Of a stretch of DNA of 64,000 nucleotides, positions 24,303-42,922 are shown in pieces. Location of the stretch: assembly GCF_018143015.1 (NCBI RefSeq), contig NC_054742.1, forward strand, positions 59,342,853 through 59,406,852, read 5' to 3'. Source of the DNA: Lytechinus variegatus (taxonomy: Eukaryota > Echinodermata > Echinoidea > Temnopleuroida > Toxopneustidae). The notes beneath the pieces were generated by a model. That model was not told the origin of the DNA and searched no databases. It worked only from the letters and a program-made list of their open reading frames with translations. Each line of letters begins with the position of its first letter. The stretch's first letter is position 1. A program made the position numbers and the translations under genes.

Positions 24303-27300
24303 CTGGACAAAAATGAAGATAAAATGGAAAGGATTGAAGCCAAGTCCAAGTTCCAGTTTAGACATCTAATTTTGATAGGAAATGGTTGGAAGCAACTCTA
24401 AAGTGTTCATCATATGCCAGGGTGCTTATTCAGAACAAAGTTTGATTCAAATAATTCAGGTTTGCTGGAAATTAAATTTAACGACCACATGCTTTTCCTG
24501 GTGTAACTAACAAAGGAAAGCACATGTGGGACCAGACGGTAAACTAAAAAAGCATTTTTCAGAGAGTTTTATGCTCTTCCTTCGCTCATTACTCTGTAAT
24601 TACACATTTTCATGAAAAATAATTTAGGAGATGTCATTTATTTCTGTTTACAATTCTGTGAACATTTTGTTTTCTGTTGTTACCCACTACCAGAGTTTAT
24701 ATTTAATAGTTATTGAGAGGAAAAAGGAGTCTAAAACAAAGGTTAGCGATGGATCGTACACTTGATTGTGCAATGTGATTGGTTAAAATTCGCAGTACAT
24801 CATTAACCACAAGAAAGGATAACCGGTCGTTCGTAAAGTTGCTTGTAACTTTACAAAACCCCCTCTTTGGAGTCCAAAGAGAATCAAGGTCACGCTCTCC
24901 TTTCTATGTACTTACTACTTGTATGTTTCTGATCTGATGTAATCAAAGACATGTGACACACCCACTTGGAACTGATCAGCAATGGGTGGTACCCAAGGGT
25001 TGTTTTCTGCCTTCATGATGTTTCTTCCAGTAAACAGATCTAGCTTACCTGTAGTTTACAAAGGGGGAGGGGGGTGTAGAATACAGTTAAAATAAAAATG
25101 GTCATATTAAACAAAACAAAACTAGCACACCAATGATGTGGAGCTCATCCAGCATCTTGCAAAGAAATTTAAACAATTTTTAATTTCAGCCAAACTGACA
25201 CTGTAGTGAATTATATAGGTGACATACCGGTATATAAATTGAGGAAACAGAACTGAAATTGAAGAAATTACAAAGAAGCATTTTTGTGATTTATGAATAA
25301 AAAAAAATAGCATAAATAATTTTCGAGTAGAAATTTCTAAATGCTGTGTAGAATCTTAGTGAACCTCATGTAGCTCTCAGATGTGATTTTCTGTGATTTA
25401 TGAATAAATTTTGCATAAATTAGCATAAATAATTTCATACTCAAATTTCTTTGTAGAAGTTTGGTGAACCTCATGAAGATGGAAGAAAAAATAATAAAAA
25501 TCGGTCAACATATAAAGAAGGATTTTACGTGAATTTTTAAAAAATACGCATAAATAAGCATAACAATTTTTCAAATAAAAATTTCAAAATTCTGTGTAGA
25601 AGTTTGGTGAAATTCTTGAAGCTCTCCCAGATGGAAAACAATCAAAATAGGTCAACAAATAAATAAGAAGCATTTTTGTGAATTTTGAAAAATGTGCATA
25701 AATTAGCATATTTAATGAGTTTCAAAATTCTGTGTAGAAGTCTTGAATCCCCCACCTTGTGCTATCATATAAAGCTAACAGAATTGAAATCGGACTTGAA
25801 ATGATGAAGAAGAAGCATTTTGAAATGGACGAACGACAGACCACGGATGCCAAGCCACGGCATAAGCTCATCTGGCCCATGGCATATGGCCAGATGAGCT
25901 AAAAAATTGATATGCATGGTATTCAATATTGTTCATATGGATTTATTTAAAAAACACCAAGGAAAAAGAAATAAAATTCGTGCAAAAAATATAAAGATAT
26001 CTGTGATTGAAAAATCATAATTTAGTTTTTCTGCTGGGGACCTTAATTTTAACACATATGGAATGAAATTAAGTCTGTGTTTCTGGTCACTTTTTCACCT
26101 TTTTGAGGCATGAAATAATGATATTCAGGTGCAAATTTCAGGGCTTAACCTTTACAACATATTACAGACATGGTTAAAAAATGGCACCTTGCATTTTAGA
26201 TTTTTAAAAATTAAAGTCAATATCAATCAAAGTCCTTAAATAAAGAAATTCACAAAGCTACAAATGTTAGGAACACGAAATAAGCCTTGATAGCCAGTGG
26301 CCACCAGATAAAACCAGACATTCCAGAGCTGGCCAATGTAAGCTTTATTAGTGACTTACCCAGTTCATGGGGCAGAACTGTGATTCTGTTGCTTTGAATA
26401 TGAAGCTCTCTCAATTTCGGCAGATTTCCAATGGCTTTAGGGAGGGAGATCAGGTCATTGTCTCTAACACAAAGCTAAAATACAAAAGACATATTATTAT
26501 TATTATTTGTTTGGCGTCACCTGTGCCTGGGAGGCGAAAAGCGAACTGAATCACTATGACCCGCAGGTCTCTCTTCCCGATATAACTGATTGGGGGGAAT
26601 GCAGGTGGACCACTACACCGGGGTTTCCCCCTACTCTTATAAGAATAGTGCAGTGGGTTCTTAACATGCAAAGGTGGTGACTCTCCTCTACACGGAGCCT
26701 CCATTTAATGTCCTATCCGAGGGACGGAGTGTTTTCCATTGTAACATAGCCTGCATCTATGAAACATGGGAGAGACTTTTACACACAACGCACTGGCTTC
26801 AGTCATCCGCCCGGGGTGGACTCGAACCCACGATCTTTGGTTCGACGGGCAGACTGAGCCAACACCGCTTTCATGACATACATATGACATGATGAAGAGA
26901 CATACCTTCATATAATATAAAGCTAAGGGATTGTATACTGTCTCACTACTGAACAATCAACCTAATGCTTGTTATTCTCTAGGAAAAAAGAAGTTTATTT
27001 TAAAGGTTTGGTAATTTACAATAATATAAAGTTTGATATCCCATTTCATCCTCACTCACACATGAGCCATGTTTGGTATTGATCATTCCAATGGCTCATT
27101 AGTTATTTCCGGCCCCTGGTCCCCCTACATTTGGGGAGAGATTTCCTCCTTTGTATTTGAACTTACTGCCTATTGTGAGACAGGTGGACGAATGAAAGAC
27201 CCCAATAAATCACATCCCCACCAACCATCCAAGGTGGGAGGAGGCATAAAAAATCAAGAGTACTTAAGAATTTATTTGACCATGGGTGGAAATCCCAAGG

Positions 27301-30300
27301 GGGACAACGGGAAGCGTCCCCCCTACCCAAAATAGTCGGGGGACACAATATCAAATGTCCCCCCTACTATTTTTGGTCTTTTATGATGGAAAGAAATACA
27401 TCATTCAAAACTAAAATAAAACACTTTTTTCCTAGTCAAATTTATTTTGGTCTAAATGACCTTTTCTTTTCTTTTGCTTGTCAAATTTTCCGGCCCCTGG
27501 TCCCCCTACATTTGGGGAGACATTTCCTCCCTTGTATTTGAACTTACTGCCTAACTGAACTGTCTTTATTTTGTTGCTTCTTATCACACCACTACTAGGT
27601 ACTTAAAATGTACCATCTCTCTAAATATAATCTATTCCTGAGTTGCACCATTATGATTGCCCCAGCCCCCCCCCCCCACCAAAAAAAAATGTCCAGACAC
27701 TCAGACAGATACTTCCTTTCAATGAGACATTTCATGACATTTTTCAAGCTCATCTGACAATTTTTTTTTTATTATTATTCTTTATCATATTGTTAATGAT
27801 TTAAAGGAATTTGATTGTACTTCACATACATATTTTTAAAGTAAATAAATAATGAGGTGCAATTTATCTTTTTCAAAAAAATAGTTTGTTACTCACCACT
27901 TCTAATTTGCTCAGTTGTTCAATTTCTTCAGGAAGCACTTCAAAGTCATTGTCGCTGAGATATAGCGCCCGCAGTGTGTCTATTACAGAAAGATGTATTC
28001 ATTCAATGTTGTATAATAAAACGCAAATCAAACCAGAATAATGAGTATATTGGTATGAAATAATTAAAAGAAAAAAAAATCATTAAGCTGTGGAGTTACA
28101 CTTAACTTTACGCATGACTGCAACATGTTGTTAGGTGCAAAGTCAGCTAAAGAGTCGTCAATTATGTGTAAAGTCATTCGTAACTTACAGATTTATGAAA
28201 CCCTCATTAAGAGTGAGGGCAGGAATTTTAGATAAATTACGGTTTGAAGATTGGAATCCCTCTCCTTATGAATTTACTAGATTGGCAATTGTTATTTTGT
28301 GGATATCAAAAGTAGTCATGTGGTTACTCCCAGGGTAGTTGTGTATGAACATTGTTCTTATTTTCTTGCAAGTGTCATTTCAGACAGAGCCGCTAAACTT
28401 ACATCAAAGACAAAATATGAATACGGTATGTGCACATAGGCCATACATAAAAGGAATTAAAGTCCTGTAATAAACATTCTGAGGGGAAAAATTCATCATG
28501 TAAGTTGAAAAACATGAGAAAGAAGCAAAACTTTTCTGTATCTGGGATATCACTAATTTATCTAATTTGAATTGTTTTATAGCTCATTTAGCTTGTCTTC
28601 TTATTTTTTTCCTTCATTTTTCTTCTCCATAACATTTAGTTTAGGAGATGTGCCTCTCACTCTTATGCTTAGAAAGAATAATGGAAATGATTACAATATA
28701 AATGGAATAATTATAACAATTAGAATACAAGGAAGGAAAACAAAAGAGAAACAGAAAGGAGGTACATTAATTGTATAACTTACCTAATAAGAAGAAATTT
28801 CCAGGCAAGCTATTTTCATTGAGGTTGTTGTATGTGAGATCAAGTATTTCTAGTTTGGGAAATGATCCAAAGCCTCTAGGTAAGCTGTACAATCTGTTCA
28901 TGCTGAAATCAATCAATAATGATAACAATAATAATAGGCATTTCTATACCAAGAGCTACGTGCATCTATTATCTAATCCCAGGTACACTATTACCCCGAC
29001 TTTAGCTAGAGCTGCTATTCCACTGCTAAGTGCATTCAAGGATAACATTGTGCCAGGTCCCCATTCACCTAACCTGGGTTGAGTGCAGCACAATATGGGT
29101 ATATTCCATGCTGAAGGATAACAAGCCATGGCTGGGATTCAAACCCACGACCCTCTGATTAAATGATGAAATTTATACCATGACATGGTCGCAAAGAAGG
29201 AATCACACATGTGTCAACTGCCATGGATCTATTTTGGATGGATATTTCCTATTTCGTCAATAGATTTATTGTGAATGTCTCTGCCAATGTTGCTCAATAA
29301 CATTTTATACACGTTAATTTAGTTTGATCTCCCAAGGTCAGCCATCCAAATTAACTTAGCAAGCCATTGTGAGAAAGCTAAAGTAAAAAAAAAAGAATCC
29401 CTAAAGTTTTACTACTCTTTTATTAAGATCTTTTGTCAGCATGAAATGCACTTGAATGGGAAAAATGTCACCAGATAGGATTGCTTCGGACAGATCATGA
29501 TGCCATTGTCCATGAACCCCCGACTTGGGCATACTAAAAGCGGGTAAAAACATTGTAATTTATTTTAGCTTAAAATCCTTGTACTTTGATCTTATGTGGC
29601 AAAATAGATGATATAAAATTGAGAATGTAATTCATATAAATTGAAATTACATTGAAATGACAATGCCACCTTCATGGTAGTCTAGATATGGACGTTATTT
29701 GTTAGGACTCACTCACCTGCACCAATACATCAGTCCTCTCTCTTCTCACTTTCTCCTACTAGAAGGTGAAAAGAGAGAGGACTGATGTATTGGTGGAGGT
29801 GAGTGAGTCCAACAAATAACCATTAATGTCTAGATCTAGACTACCTTAATGGGGGAAAAGGTTTCAATGACTGTATAAATTTGTAAAGTTTGTCAACATG
29901 ATGAAAACTAAATCTTATGGGGCTCTGCAAGAATCTTACATTCAATTCGAAATTAAGTATAAGTCCAATTCCTATAATCTAAAAGAAAATTTGTTGTTGA
30001 TTTGCATCGAATACTTCAATTGCAACTCAACTTTCTTACAAAGTGATCTCACTCTTGATTAAGGGACTTATGCCTGATTTGCAATTGAATATAAGTTTCT
30101 TGCAACAGCCAATAAGAAATATAAGTTACAATTTAAGAGACTTACCCAACATTTAAGATTTTGAGATTTTGCATCGAGCTTATATTTGTAGGTAGCTCCT
30201 CTATGTGGTTGTTGAATAGGTTGAGGGATTCCAGATTTGTCAGCTCTACTATATGTGGTGGAACAACTAGATACAAAATGAATATACATGCATATTAATT

Positions 30301-32032
30301 ATATTTTACAACTTCAATATTTGTGCAAAGTAAATGGTGACTATAATTCATAGTTGGGTGCTGGAGAAAGCAATCTACACCGACATTAGTCTTGCATCAA
30401 ATAAATAACACTTGTAGCATATAGAGCTACTTAACCCTAAAAGGACTGGGCTATTTGAGATGTATTGAGGACTGGGAGGGGGGGCATAATGGCCCCCTTT
30501 TGATCCCGGCCGTCGTTCGCGCAATCGTGCATAAATTTGGCATGCACATTCTTTACCACATAAACTACAAGCTAGTATTAAAAAAATTCTGAAAAGGTTT
30601 CCACAGAGAAAAATTGCGAAAGCCAATTCTTCCTTATGCATTTCTTTGTTTTTAGAATTTATGTATATCTTTGTTTTTTCATCTTTCGTTTTTCATTGTT
30701 TCTTTCAATGGAAATTATTACAGACCATTTAACAACTAAATCAAACCCTAAATTAATTAAGCAGACCAATAAGAACGAAAAATAATCATCCTCTTATGAA
30801 TTTCATCATAGACTTTGTATACTAAGTATAACAAGTGGAATGCCTCTGGCCGTCTCACCTGCATCACGCGGTTCAATATAGCAGCAGTGCTGACTTTGCA
30901 TACTACTCTAACTCGCACAAGATGTTCAGTGATACATGGTTACTCTTATGTCCTCTTTTTATGAACTAGACCAATAAACTTACAGAGATATGATGGTTAT
31001 TCAACAAAAAACCCCAACATGGCCAAAGTTCATTGACCTTACATGACCTTTGACCTTGATCATGTGACCTGAAACTGGAACAGGATGTTCAGTGATACTT
31101 GATTACTCTTATGTACAAGTTTCATGAATCAGATCCATAAACTTTCAAAGTTATGATGGTAATTCAACAGATACACCCAATTCGGCTAAAGTTCATTGAC
31201 CTTTGACCTTGGACATGTGACCTGAAACACGCACAGGATGTTCAGTGATACTTGGTTACTCTAATGTCCAAGTTTAACGAACTAGACCAATAAACTTTCA
31301 AAGTTATGATGGTAATTCAACAGATACCCCCGATTCGGCCAAAGTTCATTGACCCTAAATGACCTTTGACCTTAATCATGAGACCTGAAACTTGCACAAA
31401 ATGTTCAGTGATGCTTGATTACTATTATGTCCAAGTTTCATGAATCAGATCCATAAACTTTCAAAGTTATGATGGGAATTCAACAGATATCCCCAATTCG
31501 GCCAAAGTTCATTGACCCTAAATGACCTTTGACCTTGATCATGTGACCTGAAACTTGCACAAAATGTTCAGTGATGCTTGATTACTATTATGTCCAAGTT
31601 TCATGAATCAGATCCATAAACTTTCAAAGTTATGATGGGAATTCAACAGATATCCCCATTCGTCCAAAGTTCATTGACCCTAAATGACCTTTGACCTTGG
31701 TCATGTGACGTGAAACTCATGCAGGATGTTCATTGATACTTGATTAACCTTATGTCCAAGTTTCATGAACTAGGTCCATATATTTTCTAAGTTATGATGA
31801 CATTTCAAAAACTTAACCTCAGGTTAAGATTTCGATGTTGATTCCTCCAACATGGTCTAAGTTCATTGACCCTAAATGACCTTTGACCTTGGTCATGTGA
31901 CATGAAACTCTAATAGGTTGTTCAGTAATACTTGATTAACCTTATGGCCAAGTTTTATTAACTAGGTCCATATACTTTCTAAGTTATGATGTCATTTCAA
32001 AAACTTAACCTCAGGTTAAGATTTGATGTTGA

Positions 32033-32065
<33 letters not shown>

Positions 32066-35000
32066 CGCCGTCGGAAAAGCGGCGCCTATAGTCTCACTTT
32101 GCTTCGCAGGTGAGACAAAAATGAGTCATTTTTGGCATGACATTGTCTCGTAAAAAGTCACGTGACGCCACGATGCTATACCCGTATGTTGCGAATTTGG
32201 TCTCAAAAGTTGCGCAAGACTTCAAAGAAAAAAGTCATAAAATTTTGCGCCACTATCTTTTTGCGTTTCGGAAATATCACGCAAAGCATTGAGAGGGGGC
32301 CATCATGGCCCCCCAGTCCTTTTAGGGTTAAAATAACCACAATTCGAAAGGCCGAGTACTTTATCATTGAAGTATCAGTCAAAGCTTCATCTTTTTCTTA
32401 CTTGCAAAGTCTTGCAAAAGGTTTGAATTCTTACAAATAATTTTAATATCAGTTTAAAGTAGAAGAGTTGCTCTTTCATATTCAAGTAAATTTTCACTTT
32501 CTGATTCAATCAGCTTTGAACCAACCCTTGAAAATTGGCATATTATTACTAGTATTTGTTACATGCACTGTAATGTTGAGGTATCTACACAGAGATAGAT
32601 CACCATCTACAAATTTCCCTCTTTTAACAAACACTGCATGTTCAATTTACAAAACAGGAGATAGGAATGACCACACCAAACCAGACAGAAGTATTTTTCA
32701 ATTTTCAAACATAATAAAGCCCGACCTTTGGCTTGCATGAACAACAAGGTCTATTCTAAATCAAATGCTGGAATTGGAAGGCAGCAAATTGAAGGGGAAG
32801 AAAAGTAGAATGTTTTCCAAGCTTACGAAAACCACTTCCCCTGAAAACTATAAAGTCACAGGAAATCGGCAGCACATTTTTTGTAACTGATCTGCTCTTC
32901 CTTTTCCGCATTATGCTCTTACTCTAGAATAAGCTCTTCCAGAAAAGGATGATTTAAGATTTAAGAATCATATGTAAAGGTCCTGTCACACTTTAACATT
33001 TTAAGGAAGTGCACATCAATGTACAGTAATCTATGACAAGCTTTTTTCAAATTATCTTTTGCTTGATATCAATAATTTCACTCTTGATAAGAAGAATTGC
33101 CATTTGTTAACATTACCAAAATATATACTTGACATCAAGAAATTTATCGGATTAAAACTTCAAACATTAAAACAGCTTGCCATACATACGGTAACGTATG
33201 CTGGCTAAAATTTTAGGGTGTGACAGCCTGTTTAGAGAGACGAAGAGAAATAGGTAAAGAAAGTGACAGATCTCAAAATTGAGAAAAAGAGATTGAGATA
33301 CAGAGAGAAAGAGAGGAGCAATTTGAAAATTATAGAACTTACCATCAATCTTATTGTGGCTCAGAGTCAGCCTCACAAGATTAGTGAGTGAAACTGAAAG
33401 AAAATATTGAAGATAAAGATCATTCATGAACACACATTTGACATATAACCCTCTGCAAATCAGGAGCATTGAGACATGTGCATAACATGTCAACATTATT
33501 GTAAGGAATGCCAATAAAACTCTACAATAACAAAATTCTGAAATTCATTACCACAATGTTTTTAGTGTTCAGGATTTTTTGGATGGACTTCCTTATTTTT
33601 ACTGGTTGGAAAATTTACATTTTTTTTACAGTGAACAACTGAACATGAAAGTTTTAGGACTTGTCTTAGGAGTACAAATGTAAATAAATTTGTACATTTT
33701 GATTTGAATTCATCTGGAGCTAGGCTAGATGCAGAGGACATTAACTATACACTCACATGTTAAAATATTCACAGCAACAAAAAATCAAGCAGAACATACA
33801 TGTATCAGCAAAGCCAGAGCCAAGGTTTGGCAAAGCACTGTCAAAAGAAGTGGAGTTCTTAAAGGACAAGTCCACCCCAACAAAATGTTGATTTGAAAAA
33901 AAGGAGAAAAATCCAACAAGCAAAATACTGAAAATTTCATCAAATACGGATGTAAAATAAGAAAGTTATGACATTTTAAAGTTTCGCTTAATTTCACAAA
34001 ACATTGAATTCACAAACTTGAATTTTGGGCATATTTTTCTATATGCCCTCTATTGGTGGAAACTAGTAATATGGCAAGAAAATTTTCATTTTTTGATCTC
34101 TATTTTTAATTAAGAGAAAATGATTTAAAGAATCAAATTGAAATAAGAGCCAAGTAGTATGAATAATAGCTGTTATCAAAACTGTCAGTGTAAAAAAATC
34201 AAGCATTTGCCCCAAAGAAAGAGAAAATAAGCCAAACATTGCCACCCTTATTTTGCCACACATGGAGATATAACTGAGAACAAGGTTATATTATAACCTT
34301 GTTCATTGAATGAGTGCCGGTATATGCACATCCTGGTCGGTATGCAAATTGGCAGACTGATGACGTCACCCACTCACTATTTCTTTTGTATTTTATTGTA
34401 TGAAATATTCTAATTTCTCCTCCTCGTCAAGTGAAACAAAATTTTACTTCTCCCTGAATGTGTGGAATTACCATTAATTTAATATTTTATGGTTAAATTA
34501 AGTTGATCCTTATTGTCAAATCTGTAAAAATTGAAATATTGTATTATTCATACAATAAAAAACAAAACTTCAAAAGAAATAGTGATGGACATCATCGACT
34601 CTCTCATTTGCATATCGCCGAGTTGTGCATTGAACTGTTTTGCGAAAAATAAGGGAAACTTAAAAATGTTATGACTTTCTTATTTTACATCCGATTTCAT
34701 GAAATTTGCAGCATTATTTTTGTTTGATTTTTCTCTATCGATTCAATTTCAAATCAACAATTTTCTGGGGTGGACTTGAACTTTAAATTCTAGTTTGTTT
34801 TTTTATGTTATAGATGTGTGAGCAGATCTAGTTCTACCATGCTATTATGATACAAATCCCATAAAATGCCATTTCATCACATTTTAAAAAGTGATTTGTA
34901 TCTGTGTTCACTCATCAGAAACATTTCCAAATTGCAAGACCGTGTACTGTTATGCCTACACTAATATTAATGAATGGGACCGGAGAAAAATACTTACACA

Positions 35001-42502: not shown

Positions 42503-42626
42503 TGCATATTCATTGGATAATTATCAGTAGAGTTGCTGGTCACAAAATGAGGATTGTCCCAGTTTAATGTGTCTCAGTTTACAAATCCATGTATTACTCC
42601 ACACAAGTAATCTAGGAAAGCCGAGT

Positions 42627-42922
42627 GGAGCGTTGTGGCCCAGTGGATTAGTCTCCGGACTTTGAAACAGAGGGTCGTGGGTTCGAATCCCAGCCAGGGC
42701 GTAATTTCCTTTAGCAAGAAATTGATCCACAATGTGCTGCACTCAACGCAGGTGAGGTAAATGGGTATCTGGCAGGAATTTATTCCTTGAAACGCAGCGC
42801 GCGTAACAGCTGCACTACTAAAGCCAGGGTAATTATGCTGCATATACTGCAGAGCGCTTAGAGACTTCTGACAAAGTAAGTATTAAGCGCTATATACATG
42901 TAAGCAAGTATAATTATTATTA
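42627..42922 (+). mobile_element. tRNA-derived SINE, full length
   Basis: A-box-like TGGCCCAGTGGATTAGTC near 42636, B box GGGTTCGAATCCC near 42679, then TGTGCTGCACTCAACGCAGG, AGCGCTTAGAGACTTCTG, AAGCGCTATATACATG and an (ATT)n tail. The tRNA part does not fold into a standard acceptor stem, so it is a SINE head rather than a working tRNA. Confidence 0.9.

Follow-up and report, generated by a model that had tools for sequence, protein, structure and literature searches.

The window analysed here is a stretch of 64,000 nucleotides (nt) of Lytechinus variegatus DNA (G000:C3:59342853-59406852), taken from an assembly of 869.6 Mb in 33 contigs. Its minus strand carries the gene RSU1, and two of the seven introns of this gene each hold a short interspersed element (SINE) in the same direction as the gene, the tail of which ends just before the acceptor splice site. 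The exons of RSU1 were located by tblastn with a human RSU1 protein sequence as the query. The eight exons found give, once joined, an uninterrupted open reading frame (ORF) of 276 amino acids, and the best match of its product in PDB was Ras suppressor protein 1 (E 5.7e-119). The acceptors of exons 2-8 lie on the minus strand at 33393, 30266, 28902, 27979, 26474, 25048, and 24302. A preliminary description of this DNA had already named an eight-exon minus-strand RSU1 with two sense SINE tails next to its acceptors, and both observations were borne out; the distance from tail end to exon is 18 nt for exon 6 and 10-11 nt for exon 4. Neither exon 4 (28784..28902, minus strand, 119 nt) nor exon 6 (26360..26474, minus strand, 115 nt) has a length divisible by three, so that loss of either exon would shift the frame. 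With both exons included the frame stays open, which supports the view, developed below, that the two insertions have been tolerated.

The Two SINE Families

The element in intron 5, here called SINE1, lies at approximately 26493..26872 on the minus strand, in sense to RSU1. It has a tRNA-like head and an (AAT)5 tail at 26493-26507 (minus strand). Between the end of the tail at 26493 and exon 6 (26474) the intron retains 18 nt of non-SINE sequence (26475..26492, minus strand; ATGTCTTTTGTATTTTAG), which is T-rich, finishes in TTTTAG, and comprises the pyrimidine tract and the acceptor. The RSU1 copy matches the consensus at 98.3% identity across 346 nt, and at least 39 other matches were found, all listed ones being 94-98% identical to it. 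Judging from these identities, the SINE1 family is young. The consensus ends in ...GGTGACGCCAAACAAATAATAATAAT, and the exact 29-nt 3' end occurs at 397 places in the genome. Among 80 such ends sampled from contigs C1-C3, 39 share one and the same 3' flank (L075, L077, L088, L111, and 35 loci between L078 and L154), which means that about half of the sampled ends are contained within a larger dispersed repeat and that independent insertions are fewer than 397. A strict gapped pattern of SINE1 gave one match genome-wide, at L069. With many dispersed copies, a tRNA-like head and a simple-repeat (AAT)n tail, SINE1 was classified as a tRNA-derived SINE. The consensus contains the A/B-box-like motifs TGGCTCAGTCGG and GGTTCGAGTCC, and the 11 nt that are missing from the head of the RSU1 copy fall at the A box.

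SINE2, the element in intron 3, lies at approximately 28914..29163 on the minus strand, also in sense to RSU1, with a tRNA-like head, an approximate 5' border, and a decayed (ATT)n tail. The tail ends at about 28914, 10-11 nt short of exon 4 (28902), and its border is not sharp. The last 10-11 nt of the intron (28903..28913, minus strand; ATTGATTTCAG) contain TTGAT motifs with their A at 28913 and 28909. At least 40 other matches to SINE2 were found, the listed ones being 75-85% identical, and on these values SINE2 is the older of the two families. Its relatives have the 3' end GGCGCTATATAAATGCC(TATTAT)n in common, and an exact 35-nt 3' end was found at 389 genomic places. Dispersed copies, a tRNA-like head and a (TATTAT)n tail again define a tRNA-derived SINE. 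The head carries GGGTTTGAATCCC, a B-box-like motif, while its 5' half is hard to recognise in the RSU1 copy. ARAGORN reported zero tRNAs in the window, and the label "tRNA-derived" for SINE2 is therefore a matter of box motifs. As SINE1 and SINE2 differ in both family and age, they point to two independent insertion events. No paper on either family was among those listed by the literature searches. A second, better preserved copy of SINE2 is present outside RSU1 in the same window (42625-42836, plus strand), 84% identical to the query body.

Target-site duplications were scored in 21 SINE1 copies, that of RSU1 included. The mean score was 5.0 for true flanks vs. 4.35 for swapped flanks, and scores of at least 6 were reached by 6 of the 21 true pairs vs. 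57 of 420 swapped ones; the RSU1 copy scored 6 (TATGTC). The candidate duplication around SINE2, ATTTCATCAT/ATTTCAGCAT, was equalled by 8-15% of random pairs under a hard mismatch penalty and by 2-5% under a milder one. We also considered that the acceptor of exon 4 had been copied as the target-site duplication of SINE2 (ATTTCATCAT / ATTTCAG-CAT). This candidate was dropped, as 2-15% of random pairs are equally good and the 5' copy, by eye, is perhaps part of the SINE head.

Branch-Point Candidates and Acceptor Strength

Acceptors of dynein genes in the same genome served as the reference. Alignment of dynein paralogue ORFs was swamped by other repeats, and profile-anchored acceptors were picked automatically instead. 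Out of 104 matches, 50 had scores above 2, and 49 remained after one redundant acceptor was taken out; at least one near-paralogue pair (L039/L040) stays in this set, and some of the picks are perhaps wrong. Branch contexts were scored from 0 to 4 on the branch-point motif yUnAy, and an A scoring at least 3 was considered branch-like. The region to be searched followed the AG-exclusion rule, according to which the branch point is sought within the AG exclusion zone and about 15 nt upstream of it (Gooding 2006, PMC1431707). The zone of the exon 6 acceptor covers 26477..26520 (minus strand, 44 nt), of which 28 nt are SINE1, and that of the exon 4 acceptor covers 28905..28943 (minus strand, 39 nt), of which approximately 30 nt are SINE2 tail. 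Both zones are of ordinary length, the median of the 49 dynein acceptors, taken over 70 nt, being 40. The 15 nt beyond each zone are SINE as well.

At position -15 or further back, every A with a score of at least 3 was a SINE base in both introns. For exon 6 these are ATAAT contexts of the UAAU type at 26494, 26497, 26500, and 26503 (minus strand; -20, -23, -26, and -29) in the SINE1 tail, and GTGAC at 26517 (minus strand; -43), also in SINE1. For exon 4 they are ATTAT, ATCAT or GTTAT contexts at 28917, 28920, 28923, 28929, and 28932 (minus strand; -15, -18, -21, -27, and -30) in the SINE2 tail. The sole non-SINE A of the exon 6 zone at such a distance, at -18, had a score of 1. The pyrimidine content of exon 6 was ordinary, and its acceptor scored 5.1 on a position weight matrix built from the 49 dynein acceptors, the 11th from the weakest in comparison with them. 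According to the preliminary description, the branch point and the upstream tract of both introns must be located within or next to the SINE tails. This is supported as far as the AG exclusion zones, which are mostly SINE, and the branch-like As at -15 or further back are concerned. The word "must" overstates the case of exon 4, where full-score TTGAT motifs occur at -11 and -7, and the pyrimidine tract of exon 6, contained in the last 18 nt of the intron, is non-SINE.

The two SINE ends were then transplanted in silico, each being set upstream of the last 10 (or 18) nt in the 49 dynein introns, and a motif scoring at least 3 was looked for in the AG-free zone; this scoring is crude. With 10 nt kept, SINE1 in sense gave such a motif in 49/49 introns and in antisense in 0/49, SINE2 in sense gave 49/49, and random window DNA 16/49. 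With 18 nt kept, the numbers were 46/49 for sense and 17/49 for antisense SINE1, 46/49 for SINE2 in either orientation, and 28/49 for random DNA. The sense SINE tails are AG-free and rich in branch motifs, and that they are able to supply splice signals appears plausible in silico.

Interpretation of the RSU1 Insertions

We infer from these features that exons 4 and 6 are spliced normally and that the branch points of introns 3 and 5 are supplied by SINE bases; the argument on branch points is good for exon 6 and fair for exon 4. Branch points supplied by the tails themselves seem likely. The order of events that we infer begins with two SINEs of different families, inserted by chance and at different times, in sense, in the final 10-20 nt of introns 3 and 5. 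Each insertion would have displaced the former branch point hundreds of nt upstream. Tolerance would have come from the SINE 3' ends, which lack AG and finish in an (AAT)n or (ATT)n triplet tail; such tails would repeat UAAU or UUAU branch-like motifs as far from the retained acceptor AG as branch points usually lie. At exon 6 the native T-rich tract would have been retained, and at exon 4 the U-rich SINE2 tail would also have taken the place of the greater part of the pyrimidine tract, with a weak acceptor as the result. We favour this explanation, two tolerated chance insertions with AG-free triplet tails that give a usable branch site, and consider it reasonably probable.

Several observations weigh against it. 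TTGAT, with full score, occurs twice before exon 4, at -11 and -7, on the border of the SINE2 tail or beyond it. These motifs are nearer to the acceptor than typical branch points, and a branch point very close to the acceptor and outside the SINE may serve this exon; our confidence in the favoured explanation is reduced because they adjoin exon 4. Introns 3 and 5 are also alone among the seven RSU1 introns in having no 4/4 candidate at -15 to -60, such candidates being present in 5/7 RSU1 introns and in 24/49 dynein introns. The acceptor of exon 4 scored 1.8, the third weakest in comparison with the 49 dynein acceptors. Exons 3 and 5 of RSU1, which are SINE-free, scored 5.1 and 4.8, near exon 6, so the acceptor score says little on SINEs, and exon 6 is unremarkable; among the SINE-bearing acceptors only that of exon 4 looks weakened. 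In the transplant with 10 nt kept, antisense SINE2 reached 49/49 as well, and since sense and antisense SINE2 pass alike, orientation is accounted for in SINE1 only. The SINE insertion junctions are tentative rather than proven. Finally, in a chance model with two SINEs set at random place and orientation into the emptied RSU1 introns (9,415 nt), at least one lies in sense no more than 20 nt from an acceptor in 1.5% of cases, and both are in sense and end at most 20 nt upstream of one with a P of 5.5e-5, which leaves scope for a genuine bias. This P is not a genome-wide significance, as the RSU1 case was singled out only once a large scan had been made. On the rough assumption of about 10,000 genes with at least two SINEs, around half a gene per genome would be expected to look like RSU1 without any bias, and one such gene from a scan that seeks oddities is weak evidence of bias.

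The low P, and the sense SINE tails at 2/7 RSU1 acceptors, would be expected if the SINE machinery favoured acceptor-like targets, i.e., a T-rich tract followed by AG, and tail-acceptor junctions were common in the genome. The preliminary description had offered insertional preference as one explanation of the arrangement, and the flanks of SINE1 were used to judge it for that family. The sample comprised 109 copies, 29 from the similarity listing and 80 of the 91 further ones among 100 of the 397 exact 3' ends; removal of 37 near-identical flanks left 72, the RSU1 copy being outside these, and as four kept flanks (L015, L077, L088, and L111) are shifted duplicates of others, about 68 are independent. 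Strong acceptor-like sites, defined by a score exceeding the first quartile of 45 training acceptors, were found 5-40 nt past the tail in 2/72 flanks (L104 and L014) vs. 3, 2, and 1/72 in three windows further out, i.e., without excess. At L104, 29 nt past the tail, the acceptor score is good and the frame open, but by eye the sequence resembles a repeat. The first 10 nt past the tail contain 31% A, 35% T, and 52% pyrimidine, a composition in favour of such a preference, although the rule by which tails were delimited removes leading As; at 10-30 nt the 72 flanks contain 38-39% A and 45% pyrimidine, which speaks against it. Neither a SINE1 nor a SINE2 tail was found in the last 70 nt before any of the 49 dynein acceptors. 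The dynein acceptor at L055 has a short ATT run, unmatched to either SINE, and L058 has an antisense SINE1-like body fragment of 84 nt (71% identical) about 80 nt before the acceptor. An insertional preference of SINE1 for acceptors is thus not supported, the flank counts ruling out a strong preference only, and we regard targeting by the SINE machinery as very improbable.

Insertions may also have been random near acceptors, with survival only of those whose sense tails supply a branch point, so that the survivors are biased towards sense. The transplant of SINE1 agrees with such a bias (sense 49/49 vs. antisense 0/49 with 10 nt; 46 vs. 17/49 with 18 nt), as does the sense bias of human SINEs 20-200 bp from exons (PMC3088655). 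The equal result for antisense SINE2 does not, and mouse SINEs, in the same source, are biased the opposite way; we hold this sieve of survivors to be unlikely. Harm to splicing, in the form of partial skipping of exon 4 or 6 from a mildly harmful or polymorphic allele captured in the assembly, has precedents in dogs, where SINEs in FAM161A (15 bp before the acceptor), HCRTR2 (35 bp), and SILV (9 bp) are reported with aberrant splicing or traits (PMC3976383). The young age of SINE1 and the weak acceptor of exon 4 point the same way. SINE2, on the other hand, is an old element and the ORF remains unbroken, so that exon 4 at least has probably long been spliced well enough, and the AG zone and pyrimidine content of exon 6 are ordinary; damaged splicing is in our opinion quite improbable. 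Going further than the favoured explanation, one might regard the AG-free, (AAT)n- or (ATT)n-tailed SINEs of this genome as portable "upstream halves" of 3' splice sites, which repeatedly replace branch points in old coding genes; this generalisation is doubtful. It is similarly speculative that a sense SINE landing between branch point and acceptor brings its own array of branch sites and in this way escapes the exclusion zone of mammalian SINEs with poly(A) tails.

Comparison with Known Systems

SINEs are depleted within 100 bp of human and mouse exons, mammalian elements less than 20 bp from exons lie predominantly at donors, and no more than 10% of the full-length AluYs at this distance are near acceptors (PMC3088655). 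In terms of these zones of underrepresentation of transposable elements, SINEs less than 20 bp from mammalian acceptors are rare and risky, whereas RSU1, one non-mammalian gene, has two at acceptors. The dog SINEs of PMEL/SILV merle, FAM161A, and HCRTR2 resemble those of RSU1 in lying at most 35 bp (9-35 bp) from the acceptor (PMC3976383, PMC7349775). For FAM161A, the proposed cause is that a putative branch point at -76 was moved to a place beyond -300 (PMC3976383), and the merle SINE is described as reversed, at the acceptor, and with a 15-bp duplication (PMC7349775). The dog elements are tied to aberrant splicing or traits, and the merle element, in reverse orientation, has a poly(A) tail, whereas in RSU1 both copies are in sense, their tails consist of triplets, and the frame is intact.

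SINEs as suppliers of branch points have been proposed before. MIR copies were examined in an OGDH reporter (PMC7969005), and a MIR-AluSp pair is said to give branch points to a new exon of BLOC1S2 (PMC6822395). In both cases SINE bases were proposed or tested as branch points, as we propose for the RSU1 candidates. The difference is that these sources deal with competing branch points or a newly arisen exon, while in RSU1 two coding exons of an old gene are involved and the tail itself would be the source. RSU1 is accordingly a further case of a known idea; less usual are two insertions in one gene, coding exons essential for the frame, and triplet tails. Mammalian SINEs so near to acceptors are rare and can cause disease, and RSU1, with two SINEs and its frame kept, offers a natural test of the idea that a mobile-element tail can take over as branch point. 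The prediction is clean and measurable, namely lariats branched in (AAT)n or (ATT)n. If the phenomenon is general, SINE tail sequence would help to set where introns tolerate invasion in a genome.

Other Repeats and Dynein Genes

Near a dynein gene, at L074:8264-8525, a third tRNA-like head (GCGTTGGCTCAGTTGGTATAGG) was noticed, unmatched in the SINE1 and SINE2 searches. The dynein heavy chain genes themselves occur in near-equal pairs on the same contig of G000 (C3:8.18M/7.93M, C3:2.44M/1.16M, C4:37.40M/33.69M, C2:55.09M/57.86M, and C8:41.11M/41.79M), four of the five pairs being on opposite strands; these are either recent duplications or uncollapsed haplotypes.

The introns of RSU1 contain further repeats. 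Intron 3 has a long hairpin at 29681-29834, approximately 500 nt upstream of SINE2, with 74-nt arms that are 82% complementary and a 6-nt loop, which looks like a small inverted-repeat element. In intron 5, two direct repeats of 67 nt (27106-27172 and 27487-27553), 97% identical and 381 nt apart, are like the ends of a small element. Intron 2 harbours a tandem array with units of about 153-192 nt at 30910-32024, and similar sequence was seen by eye in dynein introns. Intron 1 has, at 33859-34786, nested inverted repeats of 40-53 nt around approximately 650 nt, an arrangement that resembles a DNA transposon bounded by terminal inverted repeats.

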